The notes beneath the pieces are model-generated. The model did not search any database. It worked only from the letters and a program-made list of their open reading frames with translations, and was not told the origin of the DNA. A DNA stretch of 64,000 nt from Pilasporangium apinafurcum (Eukaryota; Oomycota; Peronosporomycetes; Pythiales; Pythiaceae), in the NCBI GenBank assembly GCA_001600495.1, contig BCKE01000009.1:631394-695393 (forward strand). Direction: 5' to 3'. This document shows positions 23,306-54,892 of this stretch, one piece after another. Made by a program: the position numbers and the translations under genes. Each line of letters starts with the position of its first letter. Position 1 is the stretch's first letter.

Positions 23306-24196
23306 CTAGTAGCGATTGCCGATATCCGACGACCAGAACGGCGCATTCTCAAATCCGTTCTTGCCACCTTGAAAGTCGCGAATGGTCTGATGAATCTCCG
23401 ACGACGTTGTCATCACGAATGGACCATACTGCACTACTGGCTCATCAATTGGCTGGCCGCTGATAACGATAAACTCCAATCCTTCACCTTCGTCTGCTGT
23501 GTGAATGTGGACGCCATCGCCCTCTTTCTCCAATACGATTGCCTGGTGAGATGTAATGGCTTCACCCGCACACTCGCCTGATCCCGTCAATGTGTAGACG
23601 AAGGCATTATGACCTTTCGGGATCTTGTAGTCGAGACTGGCACCGGGCTTGAGCAAAAAGTGGATGTACGTCACCGGTGCTTCAGTTTCAATGGGCCCTT
23701 TCACGCCAAACACCTCTCCGGCAAACACGATTGCTTCCACGCTACCCGATTTGTCGAACGCATGTGGTACAGTCTCACGTTTGATCTCTTGATACCGCGG
23801 CTCCATGATCTTCTTCGACTTCGGAAGATTAACCCACAATTGTAATCCGTGCGCCTTCTCTTCACTCGCTGGCATCTCGGCGTGTAAAATACCTTTACCG
23901 GGAGTCATCCACTGCAGATCACCGGGACGTAACTCACCTTTGTTGCCCAAAAAATCTTCATGCCGCATGTGGCCTTTCGATGTCGGCAACATGTACGTCA
24001 CAGTCTCAAAGCCTCGGTGTGGGTGGTCGGGAAAACCGCCAGGCAGGCCGACATCGAACTCGTCGAGCATGAGAAATGGGTCCAAGTTGCGGAGTTGTGG
24101 TGTGCCGAGCGATCTTCGGACAGAGGCACCGACGCCTTCACTTTGTGCCCGTGTAACGAACTTGAAGGCAATGTCTCGAGACTGGAAGGTCGCCAT
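23306..24196 (-). CDS. Pirin family protein, copy 5
   Basis: A 296-residue pirin from ATG 24196 (MATFQSRDIAFKFVTRAQ). An in-frame ATG at 24265 would add 23 residues containing a Gln run; the internal Met matches the start position of the other pirins and is preferred. Both ligand motifs are intact (DHPHRGFETVTYMLP; GKGILHAEMP). The protein is identical, residue for residue, to copy 6, which lies in mirror orientation. The coding sequences are the same almost to the stop, where the last codons differ silently (CGC TAC against CGG TAT). The two genes are divergently transcribed from within a long inverted repeat. Confidence 0.95.
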   Translation of the reverse strand: MATFQSRDIAFKFVTRAQSEGVGASVRRSLGTPQLRNLDPFLMLDEFDVGLPGGFPDHPHRGFETVTYMLPTSKGHMRHEDFLGNKGELRPGDLQWMTPGKGILHAEMPASEEKAHGLQLWVNLPKSKKIMEPRYQEIKRETVPHAFDKSGSVEAIVFAGEVFGVKGPIETEAPVTYIHFLLKPGASLDYKIPKGHNAFVYTLTGSGECAGEAITSHQAIVLEKEGDGVHIHTADEGEGLEFIVISGQPIDEPVVQYGPFVMTTSSEIHQTIRDFQGGKNGFENAPFWSSDIGNRY

Positions 24197-24554
24197 TGTT
24201 GTAAGCTGTTGTTGTTGTTGTTGTTTGTTGGTGGTAGATTGGATAATGAACTGAGGTGATGACATTTACTTGAAGCAGACTAAGGATCGTGCAGTGTGTG
24301 AGATGTCTTTAGACAGACTGTTGACTTCGTACATCAGTCGAGTTTCTCATATCCGTCGGTAGTGGATTTTTTGTTAACGCATCGGCAGTAAATTGGGTTT
24401 TGTCACGCTTTTTCTAGTTTTTGATTGGTTAAAAATCCATGATTTCAGTATCATTATGAAACTGAGACGAGTGCGGTTAGGGATAAACAGACATGGATAC
24501 ATTTCAGGATTTGGATCATTACAACACAAAGCCAAAGTCCACTTCTGCTTGTGT
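23313..24554 (-). repeat. Inverted repeat, left arm (pirin 5 plus promoter)
   Basis: The reverse complement of 24956-26197, about 1.24 kb, apparently identical. Identity stops inside the last pirin codons on the outside and at ACTTCTGCTTGTGT on the inside. Confidence 0.9.
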
Positions 24555-24955: not shown

Positions 24956-26197
24956 ACACAAGCAGAAGTGGACTTTGGCTTTGTGTTGTAATGATCCAAA
25001 TCCTGAAATGTATCCATGTCTGTTTATCCCTAACCGCACTCGTCTCAGTTTCATAATGATACTGAAATCATGGATTTTTAACCAATCAAAAACTAGAAAA
25101 AGCGTGACAAAACCCAATTTACTGCCGATGCGTTAACAAAAAATCCACTACCGACGGATATGAGAAACTCGACTGATGTACGAAGTCAACAGTCTGTCTA
25201 AAGACATCTCACACACTGCACGATCCTTAGTCTGCTTCAAGTAAATGTCATCACCTCAGTTCATTATCCAATCTACCACCAACAAACAACAACAACAACA
25301 ACAGCTTACAACAATGGCGACCTTCCAGTCTCGAGACATTGCCTTCAAGTTCGTTACACGGGCACAAAGTGAAGGCGTCGGTGCCTCTGTCCGAAGATCG
25401 CTCGGCACACCACAACTCCGCAACTTGGACCCATTTCTCATGCTCGACGAGTTCGATGTCGGCCTGCCTGGCGGTTTTCCCGACCACCCACACCGAGGCT
25501 TTGAGACTGTGACGTACATGTTGCCGACATCGAAAGGCCACATGCGGCATGAAGATTTTTTGGGCAACAAAGGTGAGTTACGTCCCGGTGATCTGCAGTG
25601 GATGACTCCCGGTAAAGGTATTTTACACGCCGAGATGCCAGCGAGTGAAGAGAAGGCGCACGGATTACAATTGTGGGTTAATCTTCCGAAGTCGAAGAAG
25701 ATCATGGAGCCGCGGTATCAAGAGATCAAACGTGAGACTGTACCACATGCGTTCGACAAATCGGGTAGCGTGGAAGCAATCGTGTTTGCCGGAGAGGTGT
25801 TTGGCGTGAAAGGGCCCATTGAAACTGAAGCACCGGTGACGTACATCCACTTTTTGCTCAAGCCCGGTGCCAGTCTCGACTACAAGATCCCGAAAGGTCA
25901 TAATGCCTTCGTCTACACATTGACGGGATCAGGCGAGTGTGCGGGTGAAGCCATTACATCTCACCAGGCAATCGTATTGGAGAAAGAGGGCGATGGCGTC
26001 CACATTCACACAGCAGACGAAGGTGAAGGATTGGAGTTTATCGTTATCAGCGGCCAGCCAATTGATGAGCCAGTAGTGCAGTATGGTCCATTCGTGATGA
26101 CAACGTCGTCGGAGATTCATCAGACCATTCGCGACTTTCAAGGTGGCAAGAACGGATTTGAGAATGCGCCGTTCTGGTCGTCGGATATCGGCAATCG
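24956..26197 (+). repeat. Inverted repeat, right arm (pirin 6 plus promoter)
   Basis: Partner of 23313-24554; coordinates of matching bases sum to 49510. It contains about 360 bases of upstream sequence and nearly the whole pirin coding region. Confidence 0.9.
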
Positions 26198-26204
26198 GTA
26201 TTAG
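25314..26204 (+). CDS. Pirin family protein, copy 6
   Basis: A 296-residue pirin from ATG 25314, identical in protein sequence to copy 5; the alternative ATG is at 25245. The ligand motifs are intact. The 3' flank differs completely from copy 5 after the stop, while about 360 bases of 5' flank are identical, so the two genes share one promoter sequence in mirror image. Just 90 bases past the stop begins the first IS607/Fanzor element copy. As with copy 5, the product is an iron-binding bicupin of unknown role. Confidence 0.95.
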   Translation: MATFQSRDIAFKFVTRAQSEGVGASVRRSLGTPQLRNLDPFLMLDEFDVGLPGGFPDHPHRGFETVTYMLPTSKGHMRHEDFLGNKGELRPGDLQWMTPGKGILHAEMPASEEKAHGLQLWVNLPKSKKIMEPRYQEIKRETVPHAFDKSGSVEAIVFAGEVFGVKGPIETEAPVTYIHFLLKPGASLDYKIPKGHNAFVYTLTGSGECAGEAITSHQAIVLEKEGDGVHIHTADEGEGLEFIVISGQPIDEPVVQYGPFVMTTSSEIHQTIRDFQGGKNGFENAPFWSSDIGNRY

Positions 26205-26294
26205 GACAAATGAAGAGTTTTAAGGAGTAGGTTTTGCTCTATTCTTTCTGCATGTACCATGAATCCTACATAGTTAATTCATTAAATATCATAG

Positions 26295-26363
26295 CCTCAA
26301 CCTCACGAGATCATTGAGATACCGAAATATGAGTAACTCGGAGAGGAGCTCCTGTTTTTTGTA
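26295..26363 (-). ncRNA. Candidate Fanzor-linked RNA end (3' terminal segment)
   Basis: The 69 bases between the Fanzor stop and the element edge are conserved in all three copies, including the otherwise eroded one at 20.6 kb. They include the palindrome GGAGCTCC and, read on the minus strand, CTCCGAGTTACTCATATTTC. In TnpB/Fanzor systems the guide RNA is encoded at this side of the element. The RNA itself is an inference. Confidence 0.3.
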
Positions 26364-26644
26364 CTACCAATAGCTACTTAAGACTAGACAACCGCAGAGT
26401 AGACATCTCCGACACTTGGACTCGATGAGTAAGTGTTTATTCCTGCGAAAGATGTTTCTAGTAGTGCTGACATCTCTGTCAAGGATGAACTTGCAATGAG
26501 AACACTTCAAGACTTGTTGGTACCAAACATTTTGAGAAGTTGCTTCTGTTCCTTTGTTGAATACAGTTTCAATTTCAATGTTCTGTTCGGACTTGGTTTA
26601 TCTATCTTGCGCCTTTTAGTCCTTTCATAGTCTTCTAACCACTC
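26364..26644 (-). pseudogene. Fanzor/TnpB-type nuclease, internally deleted
   Basis: Two ends of a Fanzor-like RNA-guided nuclease are joined with the middle lost. The first part (26644-26510) reads DYERTKRRKIDKPSPN, then RTLKLKLYSTKEQKQLLKMF, typical of the TnpB/Fanzor N-terminus. The frame stops at 26507-26509. Overlapping it in another frame, 26508-26364 reads LKCSHCKFILDRDVSTTRNI, the C-terminal zinc finger plus the last RuvC Asp region, ending at RCLLCGCLVLSSYW. RuvC-I and RuvC-II and the central lobes are missing, so it cannot be an active nuclease. It follows the recombinase remnant directly on the same strand, the usual IS607 order. Confidence 0.65.
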
Positions 26645-27245
26645 CTATCTTCCTTCCATCTCTTCTAACAATGACGACGTTACACACAAGATGAGAGGTC
26701 TTTTTTGACTTCTTGCATTTCCATGTCTCCATTCTTGTCTTGATGAAGTTGTTGGTCAGTGTGAACCACGACTTGGGGACTATGCGCTTTACACATTTAT
26801 GCGAAGAGTCCGTACTCAAATTGATCTTGGACAGTAGCCACAATCCTCAAGATCTGCTCGCTACGTGCCATTTCCACCAATCTGGACAGTCTTGAGTCGT
26901 ACTTGAGATCGGAACCAATGTCGGTGATCCCTTTACTATCTGGGAAAACAGTCGATAGCAATACTTTTTGTCGTACACGATCGGATACTTGATTTTGGGA
27001 TGATAAAACTCGACAAGAGCCGATCATAGCGCTTTGTCAATCTTGATATCGAAATGATGAAATGATATCCATTCCTTATTCCAAACGACCATCAATCGAT
27101 TCAAGATCATACAATCGCGTTCTGTGTCCAGTAACACTTGAGATACCTCTGGTGTTAACAAGACCTTGAAGATCCCACCTCTAATGGTTTCAAGAGAAAT
27201 ACCAAATATCTCTCGAACTTTGGCAGAGGATGCATACTTGGTCAT
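26635..27245 (-). pseudogene. IS607-family serine recombinase (TnpA) remnant
   Basis: Read from 27245 leftwards. The N-terminal helix-turn-helix is clear (MTKYASSAKVREIFGISLET). A frameshift follows; YDLESIDGRLE, typical after the HTH, lies in the next frame. From 27027 another frame carries the resolvase domain: the catalytic-Ser region SCRVLSSQNQVSDRVRQ, the family signature KGITDIGSDLKYDSR, then ILRIVATVQDQFEYGLF. After a stop, QVVVHTDQQL and EVKKDLSSC continue the fold, with further stops. The protein would have been about 200 residues, as in the family. IS607 TnpA mobilises DNA without terminal repeats. Several frameshifts and stops make it dead here. Confidence 0.72.
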
Positions 27246-27828
27246 CCCTTTTGACTGGAATCGATGTCATGAGATTGACAAGTAAGATAGATGGCAGTCA
27301 GTCATCAATAATCTAATGTGTGACAGTCGATAAGAACAAAACGATAAATATCTTGATAGTACAAAAGATCCAATGTTGTCACCATTTAGAAAGAATAGAG
27401 TGTACTCGGAGTATAAAGCGTTTAGTGTCTGCATAGAGAGGCATAGCAAATGGTCAATGACAGCATTACCTTTATGATAATGGAGTGAATGGGTATGGGA
27501 AGTGATGAGTTGTTTGATGGTGATCGCAGTGTTTGAGTCATGATTCAGCAGAAGAATTAATAATTTTTTGAGTGAAATAAAACCGTTATATTTCATTGTT
27601 AGTTGATCCATTCGTAATTTTATGTGGTATGAATGTGGGTTATAAGATATGGATGGATGTACCTCATGGAGTGTGTGGGTACAATGACTTCATTCCTTTG
27701 ATCAAATGAGTCACTACCAGAGATACTCTGCATGGTCATGATTTGAGTCCTCAGAAGAGAGAAAGAGAAGACACTTAAGCGATCACCAGCAAAGCGCCGT
27801 CATCGTTCTTGTATCGCTGTGGAAGAAT
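27246..27828. other. Element interior between recombinase and ankyrin gene
   Basis: Conserved between the two copies. The minus frame 27267-27611 (114 codons) is open in both copies but shows no family features. The copies are too alike for that to mean selection. The region probably includes the ankyrin promoter. Confidence 0.5.
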
Positions 27829-28650
27829 ATGGGGGCAACATACTCTGCTTATATGAATAACCAACCGACAGATGTCCCACATGAAGGAAACGAAGATGCA
27901 CGAATACTATATTATGCTGCCAGGTCTGGAAACGTTAAACTAGTGCAATGCTTGTTGCAGGATGGCGCCACAGTCAATGGTTAAGACAATAAAGGCCGGA
28001 CAGCATTACATTATGCTGTCATGTCTGGAAACGTTAAAATGGTGCAGTACTTGTTGCAAAATGGTGCCACAGTCAATCACCGCGACAATAAAAGACTGAC
28101 AGCGCTGCATTATTCCGCTAGATTTGAAAAGGCTAAACTGGTGCAGTGCTTGTTGCAAAATGGTGTCACAGTCAATGATCAAGACAATTTCGGCCAGACA
28201 GCGCTACGTTATGCCACATCCATAAGAAACGTTGAAATGATGCAGTTCTTGTTGCAGAACGGTTCTACAGTAAATGATCGCGACGATGATGGAATGACAG
28301 CATTATATTATGCCGTCAAGTCTGGAGAGACTGAAATGGTGCAGTTCTTGGTGCAGAATGGTGCCACAGTCAACGATCAAGACAATAATGAACAGACTGC
28401 ACTACATATAGCCGCCAGGTCTGGGAACGTTGAAATGGTGCAGTTCTTAGGGCAGAACGATGTCATAGTCAATCATCGCGATAATAAAGGATGGACAGCA
28501 TTACATTATGCTGCCATGTCTGGAAACGTTAAAATGGTGCAGTACTTAGTGCAGAATGGTGCCACGGTCAATGGTCACAACGATATAGATAAAGAAGTGC
28601 TACGATATGATGCCGACGAAAAGATGATTAAAACGAAAAATCTTGGCTGA
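27829..28650 (+). pseudogene. Ankyrin-repeat gene with in-frame TAA, element copy 1
   Basis: From ATG 27829 the frame encodes MGATYSAYMNN, a possible N-myristoylation start, then seven 33-residue ankyrin repeats (consensus like GQTALHYAARSGNVEMVQFL, then LQNGATVNDRDN) and a degenerate tail ending KMIKTKNLG. Codon 52 is TAA (27982-27984), exactly where sister repeats have CAA (Gln), so one C-to-T change explains it. Frame is kept on both sides. An internal ATG at 28021 could still give a 209-residue protein with about five and a half repeats. The same stop exists in copy 2. Ankyrin repeats bind proteins; the partner is unknown. Confidence 0.8.
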
Positions 28651-28733
28651 CGTTTAACCAACATGTGGACATGGATCCAAGTTGTAGCAACGAACAAATT
28701 CTCAAGCATGGATTGTCTGATGATCAATGTGCT

Positions 28734-28833
28734 NNNNNNNNNNNNNNNNNNNNNNNNNNNNNNNNNNNNNNNNNNNNNNNNNNNNNNNNNNNNNNNNNNN
28801 NNNNNNNNNNNNNNNNNNNNNNNNNNNNNNNNN
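28734..28833. other. Assembly gap (100 N)
   Basis: A run of exactly 100 N, the usual placeholder for unknown size. Bases 28412-28733 before it and 28834-29155 after it are the same 322 bases, so two contig ends overlap unmerged. The second ankyrin fragment (to 29072) is therefore probably not a real extra copy. Confidence 0.9.
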
Positions 28834-29155
28834 CCGCCAGGTCTGGGAACGTTGAAATGGTGCAGTTCTTAGGGCAGAACGATGTCATAGTCAATCATCG
28901 CGATAATAAAGGATGGACAGCATTACATTATGCTGNCATGTCTGGAAACGTTAAAATGGTGCAGTACTTAGTGCAGAATGGTGCCACGGTCAATGGTCAC
29001 AACGATATAGATAAAGAAGTGCTACGATATGATGCCGACGAAAAGATGATTAAAACGAAAAATCTTGGCTGACGTTTAACCAACATGTGGACATGGATCC
29101 AAGTTGTAGCAACGAACAAATTCTCAAGCATGGATTGTCTGATGATCAATGTGCT
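28834..29155 (+). repeat. Repeat of 28412-28733 after the gap
   Basis: Offset 422. It carries the last two ankyrin repeats again (with an N at 28936). Element copy 2 has this sequence only once, supporting an assembly artefact. Confidence 0.88.
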
Positions 29156-29269
29156 GAAGCTGCCTGTGGCCCAAAAGTGTTCCCAACATGCGATGGACTC
29201 AACTATGAATGGTTCACTTCCTCTCCATCTCAAGCGATTCCTGACGGTAGTGATCGTGAATACCAATAG
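29093..29269 (+). CDS. Small open frame downstream of the ankyrin gene, copy 1
   Basis: A frame of 58 codons with protein-like composition and four Cys (DQCAEAACGPKVFPTCDGLN), ending in SDREYQ. It lies just after the ankyrin stop in another frame. Copy 2 has the same frame with one change (Glu to Lys). It could be a separate small gene or a former exon. No family is recognised. Confidence 0.25.
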   Translation: MDPSCSNEQILKHGLSDDQCAEAACGPKVFPTCDGLNYEWFTSSPSQAIPDGSDREYQ

Positions 29270-29467
29270 GTGAGAATCCAGAGAATAAAACTCCACCATC
29301 TGCGATCGAAAGATGCATTTTTCATACCTTTTAGTAGCAAATTCGCCGTTAACTTTCAATTTGCGGTGATGGATATTGCAATAGTTGTTTTATGCAGTGA
29401 TTTCATGGGATACATCCAACAAAAGTAACTCACAAATGTTTTCGGTCCTAATTCTAAGCTTCGTACC

Positions 29468-29690
29468 TATACAGGACGCGTCTTACGTCTGATATGCATG
29501 CTTCCAGCATCTACCGTGATGTTGCCACATTTCATCCATTTTCGATTGTTCACAATAATGTTACCATTGATGTCCAAGTGATTTTCCCGTTGCAAACTAC
29601 TATCCTCATCCTTCGAGCTTGATGAATCACTGCTGATGGTCATGTCAGAATCAAATCCAGAGAAGGATACTTGATATGATGGTGGTATCT
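29468..29690 (-). pseudogene. Orphan terminal exon inside the element, copy 1
   Basis: On the minus strand, a frame after a splice-like CTAATCAG encodes IPPSYQVSFSGFDSDMTISS, then a Ser/Asp-rich run, DINGNIIVNNRKWMKCGNIT and a basic end HIRRKTRPV before a stop at 29468. It looks like the last exon of a gene whose upstream part is missing; an in-frame TAA sits just before the acceptor. Copy 2 keeps the frame with two residue changes. The protein family is unknown. Confidence 0.35.
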
Positions 29691-29758
29691 CTGATTAGAT
29701 GCTGGTGTGGTTTTCTTTGTCATGTGTATGGGGCCAGTGCACCGACGGTAATACCACG

Positions 29759-29929
29759 GTCATGCACTGTCATGACCTCGCATCCGTTCTTGAAAAGAAG
29801 GATGACGCTAAAAAGAACTTCTTGCGGAGAATTGGAAACAAGTTTCTGGTTCTATCAATAGGGATTGCTTCAGCTCAAAAATCATGAAAGTGTATCCCTA
29901 CAGGTAGGAGAAATGGAAGATAGAGGATG
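29759..29929. repeat. Diverged end of element copy 1
   Basis: After 29758 near-identity with copy 2 ends. From about 29787 to 29929 the two are still related (TCTATC.ATAGGGATTGCTTC; GGTAGGAGAAATGG) but with many changes, and copy 2 has about 115 extra bases before this part. Confidence 0.6.
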
Positions 29930-30018
29930 AGCACTCAAAAAAACGTTTAGCCATTTAGGAATAGTTGGTGTCACTAAATCGAGGTAAGTGACAAGAATGT
30001 TCCATTCGTGAGATCTTG

Positions 30019-51280: not shown

Positions 51281-51431
51281 TTGCCTTCTTCCTTCTTGTA
51301 CCTCTTAGATCCAACGGCAACTTTTTGATTTCCTTCAAAACAGGTCACCTAATTGGTTATAACCTCAACCCCAAGAGATCATTGAGATACCGAAATATGA
51401 GTAACTCGGAGAGGAGCTCCTGTTTTTTGTA

Positions 51432-51712
51432 CTACCAATAGCTACTTAAGACTAGACAACCGCAGAGTAGACATCTCCGACACTTGGACTCGATGAGTAA
51501 GTGTTTATTCCTGCGAAAGATGTTTCTAGTAGTGCTGACATCTCTGTCAAGGATGAACTTGCAATGAGAACACTTCAAGACTTGTTGGTACCAAACATTT
51601 TGAGAAGTTGCTTCTGTTCCTTTGTTGAATACAGTTTCAATTTCAATGTTCTGTTCGGACTTGGTTTATCTATCTTGCGCCTTTTAGTCCTTTCATAGTC
51701 TTCTAACCACTC
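51432..51712 (-). pseudogene. Fanzor/TnpB remnant, element copy 2
   Basis: Same structure as 26364-26644: an N-terminal part with KPSPNRTLKLKLYSTKEQKQ, a stop, then the C-terminal zinc finger with LDRDVSTTRNIF in an overlapping frame. The middle of the nuclease is absent. The deletion is the same in both copies, so it predates their split. Confidence 0.65.
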
Positions 51713-52313
51713 CTATCTTCCTTCCATCTCTTCTAACAATGACGACGTTACACACAAGATGAGAGGTCTTTTTTGACTTCTTGCATTTCCATGTCTCCAT
51801 TCTTGTCTTGATGAAGTTGTTGGTCAGTGTGAACCACGACTTGGGGACTATGCGCTTTACACATTTATGCGAAGAGTCCGTACTCAAATTGATCTTGGAC
51901 AGTAGCCACAATCCTCAAGATCTGCTCGCTACGTGCCATTTCCACCAATCTGGACAGTCTTGAGTCGTACTTGAGATCGGAACCAATGTCGGTGATCCCT
52001 TTACTATCTGGGAAAACAGTCGATAGCAATACTTTTTGTCGTACACGATCGGATACTTGATTTTGGGATGATAAAACTCGACAAGAGCCGATCATAGCGC
52101 TTTGTCAATCTTGATATCGAAATGATGAAATGATATCCATTCCTTATTCCAAACGACCATCAATCGATTCAAGATCATATAATCGCGTTTTGTGTCCAGT
52201 AACACTTGAGATACCTCTGACGTTAACAAGACCTTGAAGATCCCATCTCTAATGGTTTCAAGAGAAATACCAAATATCTCTCGAACTTTGGCAGAGGATG
52301 CATACTTGGTCAT
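51703..52313 (-). pseudogene. IS607 serine recombinase remnant, element copy 2
   Basis: Matches 26635-27245 with the same frameshifts and stops: the HTH (YASSAKVREIFGISLET) and the resolvase signature KGITDIGSDLKYDSR. Five residue changes from copy 1 cluster just after the HTH (for example Gly to Asp, Pro to Ser, Glu to Lys, Cys to Tyr). Not functional. Confidence 0.72.
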
Positions 52314-52896
52314 CCCTTTCGACTGGAATCGATGTCATGAGATTGACAAGTAAGATAGATGGCAGTCAGTCATCAATAATCTAATGTGTGACAGTCGATA
52401 AGAACAAAACGATAAATATCTTGATAGTACAAAAGATCCAATGTTGTCACCATTTAGAAAGAATAGAGTGTACTCGGAGTATAAAGCGTTTAGTGTCTGC
52501 ATAGAGAGGCATAGCAAATGGTCAATGACAGCATTACCTTTATGATAATGGAGTGAATGGGTATGGGAAGTGATGAGTTGTTTGATGGTGATCGCAGTGT
52601 TTGAGTCATGATTCAGCAGAAGAATTAATAATTTTTTGAGTGAAATAAAACCGTTATATTTCATTGTTAGTTGATCCATTCGTAATTTTATGTGGTATGA
52701 ATGTGGGTTATAAGATATGGATGGATGTACCTCATGGAGTGTGTGGGTACAATGACTTCATTCCTTTGATCAAATGAGTCACTACCAGAGATACTCTGCA
52801 TGGTCATGATTTGAGTCCTCAGAAGAGAGAAAGAGAAGACACTTAAGCGATCACCAGCAAAGCGCCGTCATCGTTCTTGTATCGCTGTGGAAGAAT

Positions 52897-53718
52897 ATGG
52901 GGGCAACATACTCTGCTTATATGAATAACCAACCGACAGATGTCCCACATGAAGGAAACGAAGATGCACGAATACTATATTATGCTGCCAGGTCTGGAAA
53001 CGTTAAACTAGTGCAATGCTTGTTGCAGGATGGCGCCACAGTCAATGGTTAAGACAATAAAGGCCGGACAGCATTACATTATGCTGTCATGTCTGGAAAC
53101 GTTAAAATGGTGCAGTACTTGTTGCAAAATGGTGCCACAGTCAATCACCGCGACAATAAAAGACTGACAGCGCTGCATTATTCCGCTAGATTTGAAAAGG
53201 CTAAACTGGTGCAGTGCTTGTTGCAAAATGGTGTCACAGTCAATGATCAAGACAATTTCGGCCAGACAGCGCTACGTTATGCCACATCCATAAGAAACGT
53301 TGAAATGATGCAGTTCTTGTTGCAGAACGGTTCTACAGTAAATGATCGCGACGATGATGGAATGACAGCATTATATTATGCCGTCAAGTCTGGAGAGACT
53401 GAAATGGTGCAGTTCTTGGTGCAGAATGGTGCCACAGTCAACGATCAAGACAATAATGAACAGACTGCACTACATATAGCCGCCAGGTCTGGGAACGTTG
53501 AAATGGTGCAGTTCTTAGGGCAGAACGATGTCATAGTCAATCATCGCGATAATAAAGGATGGACAGCATTACATTATGCTGCCATGTCTGGAAACGTTAA
53601 AATGGTGCAGTACTTAGTGCAGAATGGTGCCACGGTCAATGGTCACAACGATATAGATAAAGAAGTGCTACGATATGATGCCGACGAAAAGATGATTAAA
53701 ACGAAAAATCTTGGCTGA
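52897..53718 (+). pseudogene. Ankyrin-repeat gene with in-frame TAA, element copy 2
   Basis: The same seven-repeat frame as copy 1, with the same TAA at codon 52 (53050-53052). The downstream ATG 53089 opens 209 codons identical in protein sequence to copy 1. The segment here is complete, so this copy is the better reference for the gene. Confidence 0.82.
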
Positions 53719-53738
53719 CGTTTAACCAACATGTGGAC

Positions 53739-53915
53739 ATGGATCCAAGTTGTAGCAACGAACAAATTCTCAAGCATGGATTGTCTGATGATCAATGTGC
53801 TAAAGCTGCCTGTGGCCCAAAAGTGTTCCCAACATGCGATGGACTCAACTATGAATGGTTCACTTCCTCTCCATCTCAAGCGATTCCTGACGGTAGTGAT
53901 CGTGAATACCAATAG
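53739..53915 (+). CDS. Small open frame downstream of the ankyrin gene, copy 2
   Basis: Equivalent of 29093-29269, 58 codons, with Lys in place of Glu before AACGPKVFPTCDG. Its status is as uncertain as that of copy 1. Confidence 0.25.
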   Translation: MDPSCSNEQILKHGLSDDQCAKAACGPKVFPTCDGLNYEWFTSSPSQAIPDGSDREYQ

Positions 53916-54113
53916 GTGAGAATCCAGAGAATAAAACTCCACCATCTGCGATCGAAAGATGCATTTTTCATACCTTTTAGTAGCAAATTCGCCGTTAACT
54001 TTCAATTTGCGGTGATGGATATTGCAATAGTTGTTTTATGCAGTGATTTCATGGGATACATCCAACAAAAGTAACTCACAAATGTTTTCGGTCCTAATTC
54101 TAAGCTTCGTACC

Positions 54114-54336
54114 TATACAGGACGCATCTTACGTCTGATATGCATGCCTCCAGCATCTACCGTGATGTTACCACATTTCATCCATTTTCGATTGTTCACA
54201 ATAATGTTACCATTGATGTCCAAGTGATTTTCCCGTTGCAAACTACTATCCTCATCCTTCGAGCTTGATGAATCACTGCTGATGGTCATGTCAGAATCAA
54301 ATCCAGAGAAGGATACTTGATATGATGGTGGTATCT
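54114..54336 (-). pseudogene. Orphan terminal exon inside the element, copy 2
   Basis: Equivalent of 29468-29690. It ends in GGMHIRRKMRPV where copy 1 has GSMHIRRKTRPV; the frame stays open. The gene's upstream part is not seen. Confidence 0.35.
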
Positions 54337-54404
54337 CTGATTAGATGCTGGTGTGATTTTCTTCGTCATGTGTATGGGGCCAGTGCACCGACGGTAATAC
54401 CACG

Positions 54405-54892
54405 AACATGGACGCATTCAAGACTCTCGCTGTCCCATATAACCTCGTTTGTGTGATCTTTGCCTTCCTTTTGGATCGATACTACTGCACCACGATTTCT
54501 GGATAATCGCTTTGATTTTCTACACACTCGATCTCCTCACACCCATTCGTGAAAAGAAGGATAGCGGAGAAAAGAGCTCATCGGGGAAAATTCGAAACGA
54601 GTTTCTGCTTCTATCGATAGGGATTGCTTCGCTTAAAAAACACGTCAAAATGTATCCTTTCGGTAGGAGAAATGGGACGATAGAGGCTATTGAAAAAGAA
54701 CGATATTCATAGGTAAAATGATCAACATTTCAACACTGATGCGAATCATCTTGGAAAAACATCAACATACATTGGAAAGTTCTTACTCCTTACAAATTTG
54801 TGCAATACACTATCGTCTCTTACCTACAGACGCTGCTCAAATTATTTACATTCTCTCCTCCATAACCAGTTTTCCCGATTCGCAGACCGATA
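54405..54892. other. Diverged element end and spacer
   Basis: The plus frame 54449-54712 (87 codons) shares its second half with copy 1 (NEFLLLSIGIAS against NKFLVLSIGIAS). It may be a decayed coding tail of the element. Similarity to copy 1 ends near 54686; the rest is spacer before the CK2 stop. Confidence 0.45.

Follow-up and report, generated by a model that had tools for sequence, protein, structure and literature searches.

A piggyBac-type transposon family in Pilasporangium apinafurcum that probably took in an IS607 tnpA–Fanzor2 pair

How did RNA-guided TnpB nucleases pass from bacterial IS607 elements to eukaryotic transposons? This open question is raised by a repeated unit in the genome of the oomycete Pilasporangium apinafurcum. 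The window analyzed here, a stretch of 64,000 nucleotides (contig BCKE01000009.1, below C9, positions 631394-695393) from an assembly of 36.5 Mb and 136 contigs, holds two copies of the unit 25 kb apart. Alignment and end profiles place them at 26295..29926 (element A, locus L001) and 51363..54686 (element B, L002), with tnpA and tnpB on the minus strand. (C numbers are assembly contigs, labels such as C9:263k add a position in kb, and other L numbers are loci elsewhere in the same genome.) An initial annotation had described a decayed IS607/Fanzor element with an ankyrin gene inside it. One mobile unit does contain an IS607-type tnpA together with the two ends of a Fanzor/TnpB gene and ankyrin-gene sequence, and further copies exist: a 2.4-kb query finds 63 matches in the assembly, A and B counted. 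The relatives, however, show TTAA-flanked inverted repeats and remnants of a piggyBac-type transposase, and a plain IS607 element became the weaker explanation once these ends and remnants, and the TnpA motif, had been compared. We consider it likely, at a probability of roughly 0.7, that an IS607 tnpA–Fanzor2 pair was taken up by a piggyBac-type transposon targeting TTAA and that A and B are non-autonomous members of its family.

The history we propose would begin with an ancestor in which short terminal inverted repeats enclosed a piggyBac-type transposase gene, an IS607 tnpA, and Fanzor2 (tnpB), all in the same orientation. The family would have moved by cut and paste, through a piggyBac-type transposase probably supplied in trans, and the loss of TnpA's catalytic motif would predate most of the copies examined. 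In one lineage, a host ankyrin-tandem-kinase gene would have been captured in the interval separating tnpA from the transposase gene and carried to many sites, with kinase and transposase parts being shed. We also lean, less firmly, toward seeing the family as a frozen intermediate of Fanzor evolution, in which the tnpA–Fanzor2 pair sat whole in a piggyBac-type transposon, TnpA lost its motif, and Fanzor2 stayed open in at least one copy, before growth to what we estimate below as hundreds of copies and the transport of host ankyrin-kinase sequence.

Element ends and transposase remnants

Members of the piggyBac superfamily target TTAA, and it is TTAA rather than GG that lies next to the ends of this family. 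Profiles of the end on the tnpB side (RE) and of the end on the transposase side (LE) were built from 18 and 22 copies, respectively. In element A they place RE at 26295..26366 (E=2.2e-42, a value obtained with A and B among the 18 profile-building copies) and LE at 29768..29926 (E=5.2e-34), neither being assigned a strand. The edges 26295 and 51363 given by the initial annotation are the outermost CCTC of the element, and its right end, 29929, is placed here at 29926. Positions 29754-29926 of A also follow tnpA in ankyrin-free copies (e.g. L010, L012, L018, L022, and L030), which shows that the element extends to the end of this segment and encloses the ankyrin gene.

The LE profile gave 29 hits, two of which were dropped as truncated (L012 and the first piece of L030), and the other 27 were placed by a motif that excludes TTAA. 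With this placement, 14 of the 27 have exact TTAA and 24 match it at three or more positions; with TTAA inside the placing motif, 15 are exact. The six bases outside LE have no sequence in common. At RE of the plain type, exact TTAA is present in 8 of 10 hits (8 of 9 read by eye). Two plain copies are full length, 2494 and 2453 bp with the terminal 4-mers included, and have inverted ends of ~12 bp, which in the first of them match at 11 of 12 positions (TTAACCGTTATT versus AATAAAGGTTAA). At L040, two elements lie head to head with a single common TTAA (by eye). The 41 matches listed for copy number come from the best 40 scored of 462 candidates for LE and of 493 for RE, so that a family of hundreds of copies is a rough estimate and not a count. 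At L057 (C8:399500-404000, ~1421), the insertion falls at the stop codon of what looks by eye like a HECT ligase gene, which retains a stop, and L060 (C1:368500-375500) has an additional LE at 1126-1292, in the stretch from RE to where the ankyrin cargo begins.

The assembly contains three matches to the piggyBac transposase family PF13843, on C5, C40, and C12. At the C12 locus (L082), RE (E=5.4e-40), tnpA (2.5e-30), and the piggyBac core (2.5e-25) stand on one strand within 1.3 kb, the core clearing the PF13843 cut-off at 26 bits; LE was not found in this locus. Searches with the C5 and C40 proteins find transposase remnants that adjoin LE on the tnpA strand. The best is at L060 (E=8e-18, with a C-terminal part at E=7.7e-13), and L058 and L059 also have N- and C-terminal parts. 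N-terminal remnants only are present at L003, L004, L021, L029, L054, L057, L061, and L062 and, on the minus strand of the window, at 54393-54533 in B (direct tblastn, E=1.5e-5) and 29386..29562 in A (the N-terminal third; tblastn, E=1.8e-4). The whole remnant in B spans 53817..54533, the rest being recognized by DNA homology to A, L058, L059, and L060. Residues 257-514 of the C5 protein are covered by none of these N- and C-terminal remnants, the piggyBac core is absent from A and B, and Pfam assigned no family to three transposase remnants taken alone. Around the C5 and C40 piggyBac genes, inverted repeats and family ends were sought and none found, and a control search of 80 Fanzor2-like loci from prokaryotes and viruses returned no piggyBac match.

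TnpA and Fanzor2 genes

Four peptides had been quoted from element A, and all four are present in its minus-strand frames: the N-terminal helix-turn-helix of tnpA (27027..27245, in a frame of 27027-27266), its serine-recombinase domain (26800..27036), the N-terminal part of tnpB (26510..26644), and the C-terminal part of tnpB with part of the zinc ribbon (26367..26597). In B, the tnpA remnant lies at 51868..52313, also on the minus strand. Profiles recover the tnpB frames below cut-off (PF07282, E=0.0024, for the C-terminal part; PF12323, E=0.042), and the resolvase frame has no resolvase family in Pfam, where its sole match is unrelated (E=0.12), and no match among Protein Data Bank sequences. 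Protein alignment is strong, however: a Phytophthora infestans TnpA/TnpB protein used as the query (P0118) aligns across the unit at E=8.3e-39 in A and 3.5e-35 in B, in the order tnpA then tnpB, with both genes broken.

DRLxR is the catalytic motif of TnpA, and it is lost from A. Among 31 loci in this genome, the DR..R motif is intact in none, and 21 have a three-residue gap there; in L082, a stop stands in place of the gap. Among the 80 prokaryotic and viral loci, tnpA is present in 63, and 57 of the 60 that are readable keep the motif. The assembly has three resolvase-domain matches, the best at 29 bits.

Most of tnpB, including the RuvC part with its DPG motif, is gone from A and B, and in A the middle of the gene is deleted at ~26520. 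The alignments of 14 copies, including A and B, continue unbroken across this junction, whereas those of 18 others have an edge there. A and B thus belong to an amplified internal-deletion subfamily, and the idea of an individually decayed copy is not borne out. A relative on C62 retains an open frame of 504 codons (stop to stop) with an AIDPG motif; PF07282 (E=3.7e-21) and PF12323 (E=2e-10) both exceed their cut-offs, and OrfB_IS605 is slightly below. The Fanzor1 label of the initial annotation does not fit this nuclease, which is of the Fanzor2 type by its DPG motif, PF12323, and mostly cyanobacterial prokaryotic relatives (53 of the 70 loci found, by record title), as would be expected for Fanzor2.

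The genome carries a rich Fanzor load beyond the family of A and B. The assembly has at least 150 TnpB-type zinc-ribbon matches, with 150 out of 852 candidates scored, and several of them fall in long open frames. One of the matches, at C53:214292-214489, lies inside an open frame of 8140 codons, a length that a run of Ns may inflate. At L038 (C135), visual inspection suggests a Fanzor1-like frame of at least 572 codons, which has a zinc ribbon and an IDPG motif, next to one resembling a mariner/pogo-type transposase.

The ankyrin-tandem-kinase cargo and the two copies

The ankyrin gene lies inside the unit, as had been proposed, but it is a fragment of an ankyrin-tandem-kinase gene rather than a complete gene. 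In A, the 5' region and ankyrin part occupy 27308..28650 on the plus strand (open reading frames, Pfam ankyrin E=3.2e-49, and homology to ankyrin-kinase genes); a frame at 27829-27984 closes at a stop, and reading resumes at 28021-28650. The part captured in B, defined by homology and junction comparison, spans 52376..53816 on the plus strand, and the junction at 27307 in A is 52375 in B. Homology of B to plain copies, in all eight that were compared, stops at 52339-52375 and resumes at 54353-54393, and between these junctions lie the ankyrin part and further sequence of the transposase remnant.

Elsewhere, the ankyrin part runs on into two kinase domains, and long open standalone genes of this kind are found at C52 and C35 (Pfam). 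Element-borne versions retain both kinases at C1, C9:263k, and C9:66k and one or part of one at C7, C13, and two C8 loci; C43:274k carries its kinase piece in inverted orientation. RE, ankyrin/kinase sequence, and LE occur together at nine loci (A, B, C43:274k, C8:302k, C8:400k, C7, C13, C9:263k, and C1), with RE partial at C8:302k and C13 and LE partial at C9:263k. The ankyrin part has been lost from C9:771k, C43:3k, and C9:778k, which have a common junction (52822|54041). At C9:66k, an open frame of 1,120 codons continues across a run of 65 Ns, with no LE within the stretch examined. In the first kinase domain, dN/dS is 0.84 for two close element-borne copies and 0.23-0.80 for the other pairs (two outgroup rows left out). 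Phytophthora, Globisporangium, and Nothophytophthora also have ankyrin-kinase genes (kinase region 27-44% identical among 120 listed of 454 matches, many with ankyrin domains), but here, unlike in those genes, gene parts sit within a transposon at nine loci. Of 130 kinase matches of the ankyrin-kinase type in this assembly, many are clustered on a few contigs (C21, C68, and C52). A distance of ~820 bp separates a standalone ankyrin gene from a tnpA/LE remnant at L067 (C50:239500-246000), an arrangement that may picture the state before capture.

The second copy in the window is real, with 26291-28733 matching 51359-53801 at 99.6% and 28834-29767 matching 53480-54413 at 98.9%. A 100-N assembly gap in A (28734..28833, unstranded) has a 322-bp duplicate on each side (28412-28733 = 28834-29155), which is most likely an assembly artefact. 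With the gap and the duplicate left out, A and B are ~99.6% alike from 26307 to ~29755, over ~3.0 kb. This near-identity holds for the interior but not for the ends: A and B disagree at 3 of the first 16 aligned bases, and identity over the last ~150 bp is 80%, not 99%. A also lacks 113 bp that are present in B, and the LE of each copy is closer to those of other loci (A to L029, 83%; B to L004 and L010, 85%) than the two are to each other (80%). Recent transposition of one copy from the other would be consistent with 99.6% identity between different flanks, but the end mismatches, the 20% difference over the last 150 bp, the missing 113 bp, and the LE relationships make it quite improbable. 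Because the interior is alike and the ends are different, gene conversion fits better, and we infer that it took place between two old insertions.

Competing origins and known Fanzor2 carriers

Several observations weigh against a piggyBac-type carrier or against a simple history for it. Among the three PF13843 loci, one of them inside the family, no intact piggyBac gene with family ends was found, and the transposase remnants in ankyrin-free copies are weak (L012, E=6e-6; L040, 8.5e-6; L042, 7e-5; L022, 1.9e-4; L046, 5e-4). For the subfamily of A and B, 27 of 32 RE hits could be placed, of which only 2 have exact TTAA and 8 match it at three or more positions, and the repetition of CCTC makes the placement uncertain. 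Exact TTAA is found at neither end of A nor of B, which where other copies carry it have ATAG (26291-26294) and ATGA (29927-29930), and ATAA (51359-51362) and CTAT (54687-54690), respectively. An empty site, which the initial annotation had suggested seeking, was not found when 8 of 12 joined flanks were searched in the genome and returned 16 self matches only, so that duplication of TTAA is not proved. In the kinase tree, four element-borne genes do not form one clade (3 changes; approximately unbiased test, p=0.035). A single capture of the cargo is thus not shown and finds no support in the tree; capture may have occurred more than once, or the signal may have been blurred by gene conversion.

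Could the family instead be a true eukaryotic IS607 element, formerly moved by TnpA through a palindromic TTAA/TA core, with the piggyBac piece an unrelated fragment that was picked up? The order tnpA then tnpB is the usual IS607 order, and tnpA is found near the prokaryotic and viral Fanzor relatives in the same 63 of 80 loci. A serine recombinase requires only a common dinucleotide at both ends, a palindromic TTAA joint would equally suit one with a TA core, and the rarity of exact TTAA at RE of the window's subfamily points in the same direction. We nevertheless find this origin unlikely. The plain copies have matching terminal inverted repeats and TTAA, whereas IS607, in the excerpted text of one account, has no terminal inverted repeats and no duplications and targets GG (PMC6188088). 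Transposase remnants occupy the same place with and without the ankyrin part, the piggyBac core stands beside tnpA in L082, and the TnpA motif is broken in 31 of 31 loci, a count that rests on decayed copies and includes four that overlap others (L031, L032, L035, and L036) and one, L038, recognized only at E=0.003. As a variant of the piggyBac-type origin, an IS607 copy could have inserted once, nested in a piggyBac-type element, with the composite then spreading. The two gene sets on one strand in L082 are consistent with such nesting, which we regard as possible but doubtful: nothing in these data separates an IS607 insertion from another route of capture, and no search for internal IS607 ends was made. 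Far less probable than any of these is a segmental duplication of an ankyrin-kinase locus that chanced to adjoin IS607 debris. The C50 locus, with a tnpA/LE remnant close to a standalone ankyrin gene, offers such a setting, but the flanks of 13 copies (23 pieces of 58-300 bp, C9:66k left out) have no match to one another outside the element ends.

A piggyBac-type transposon that took in the tnpA–Fanzor2 pair would both resemble and depart from the known systems. Fanzor2 was stated to occur only in IS607-type elements, without terminal repeats or duplications, and three Phytophthora species were each given one Fanzor2 family (Bao and Jurka, 2013, in excerpts; PMC3627910). The present family is like the elements described there in combining a tnpA serine recombinase and Fanzor2 in one element and unlike them in its inverted repeats, TTAA, and piggyBac-type transposase remnant. 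Fanzor2 was later reported, in the portions of a 2023 study drawn on here (PMC10711439), from cut-and-paste elements with terminal inverted repeats in the alga Chloropicon and in molluscs. As in those carriers, Fanzor2 here resides in inverted-repeat elements other than IS607; unlike in them, tnpA remnants travel along and the carrier appears piggyBac-like, and the main text of that study contains neither "piggyBac" nor "TTAA." The available text of accounts of Fanzor2 in non-IS607 carriers leaves a companion TnpA unmentioned, and the openly licensed literature searched, as far as its excerpts go, reports no composite of Fanzor/IS607 with piggyBac. With the piggyBac superfamily (PF13843), the family shares TTAA at most LE and plain RE, inverted repeats, transposase remnants, and the core in L082, and it differs from that superfamily in its IS607 tnpA, its Fanzor2, and a host gene in one lineage; no member with an intact transposase was found. 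Carriers of Fanzor2 other than IS607 are already known; what this family adds is the accompanying tnpA, a carrier that is probably of the piggyBac type, and the host cargo in one lineage. If the piggyBac-type origin is correct, this family, in which Fanzor2 is still accompanied by the IS607 transposase gene, would represent the preceding step, at which the recombinase decays while at least one copy preserves the nuclease. It would also be a case of host-gene transport by such an element, and it may show the re-housing of a bacterial gene pair in a eukaryotic transposon.

Outside the element, ~90 bp to the left of A, two pirin genes (23306-24554 and 24956-26204) lie in the arms of an inverted repeat of 1249 bp; the arms are 99.8% identical and stand 401 bp apart. 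This pirin is of oomycete type: its nearest named relatives belong to Phytophthora (82-83%), Globisporangium is also close, and Albugo candida is far (55%).

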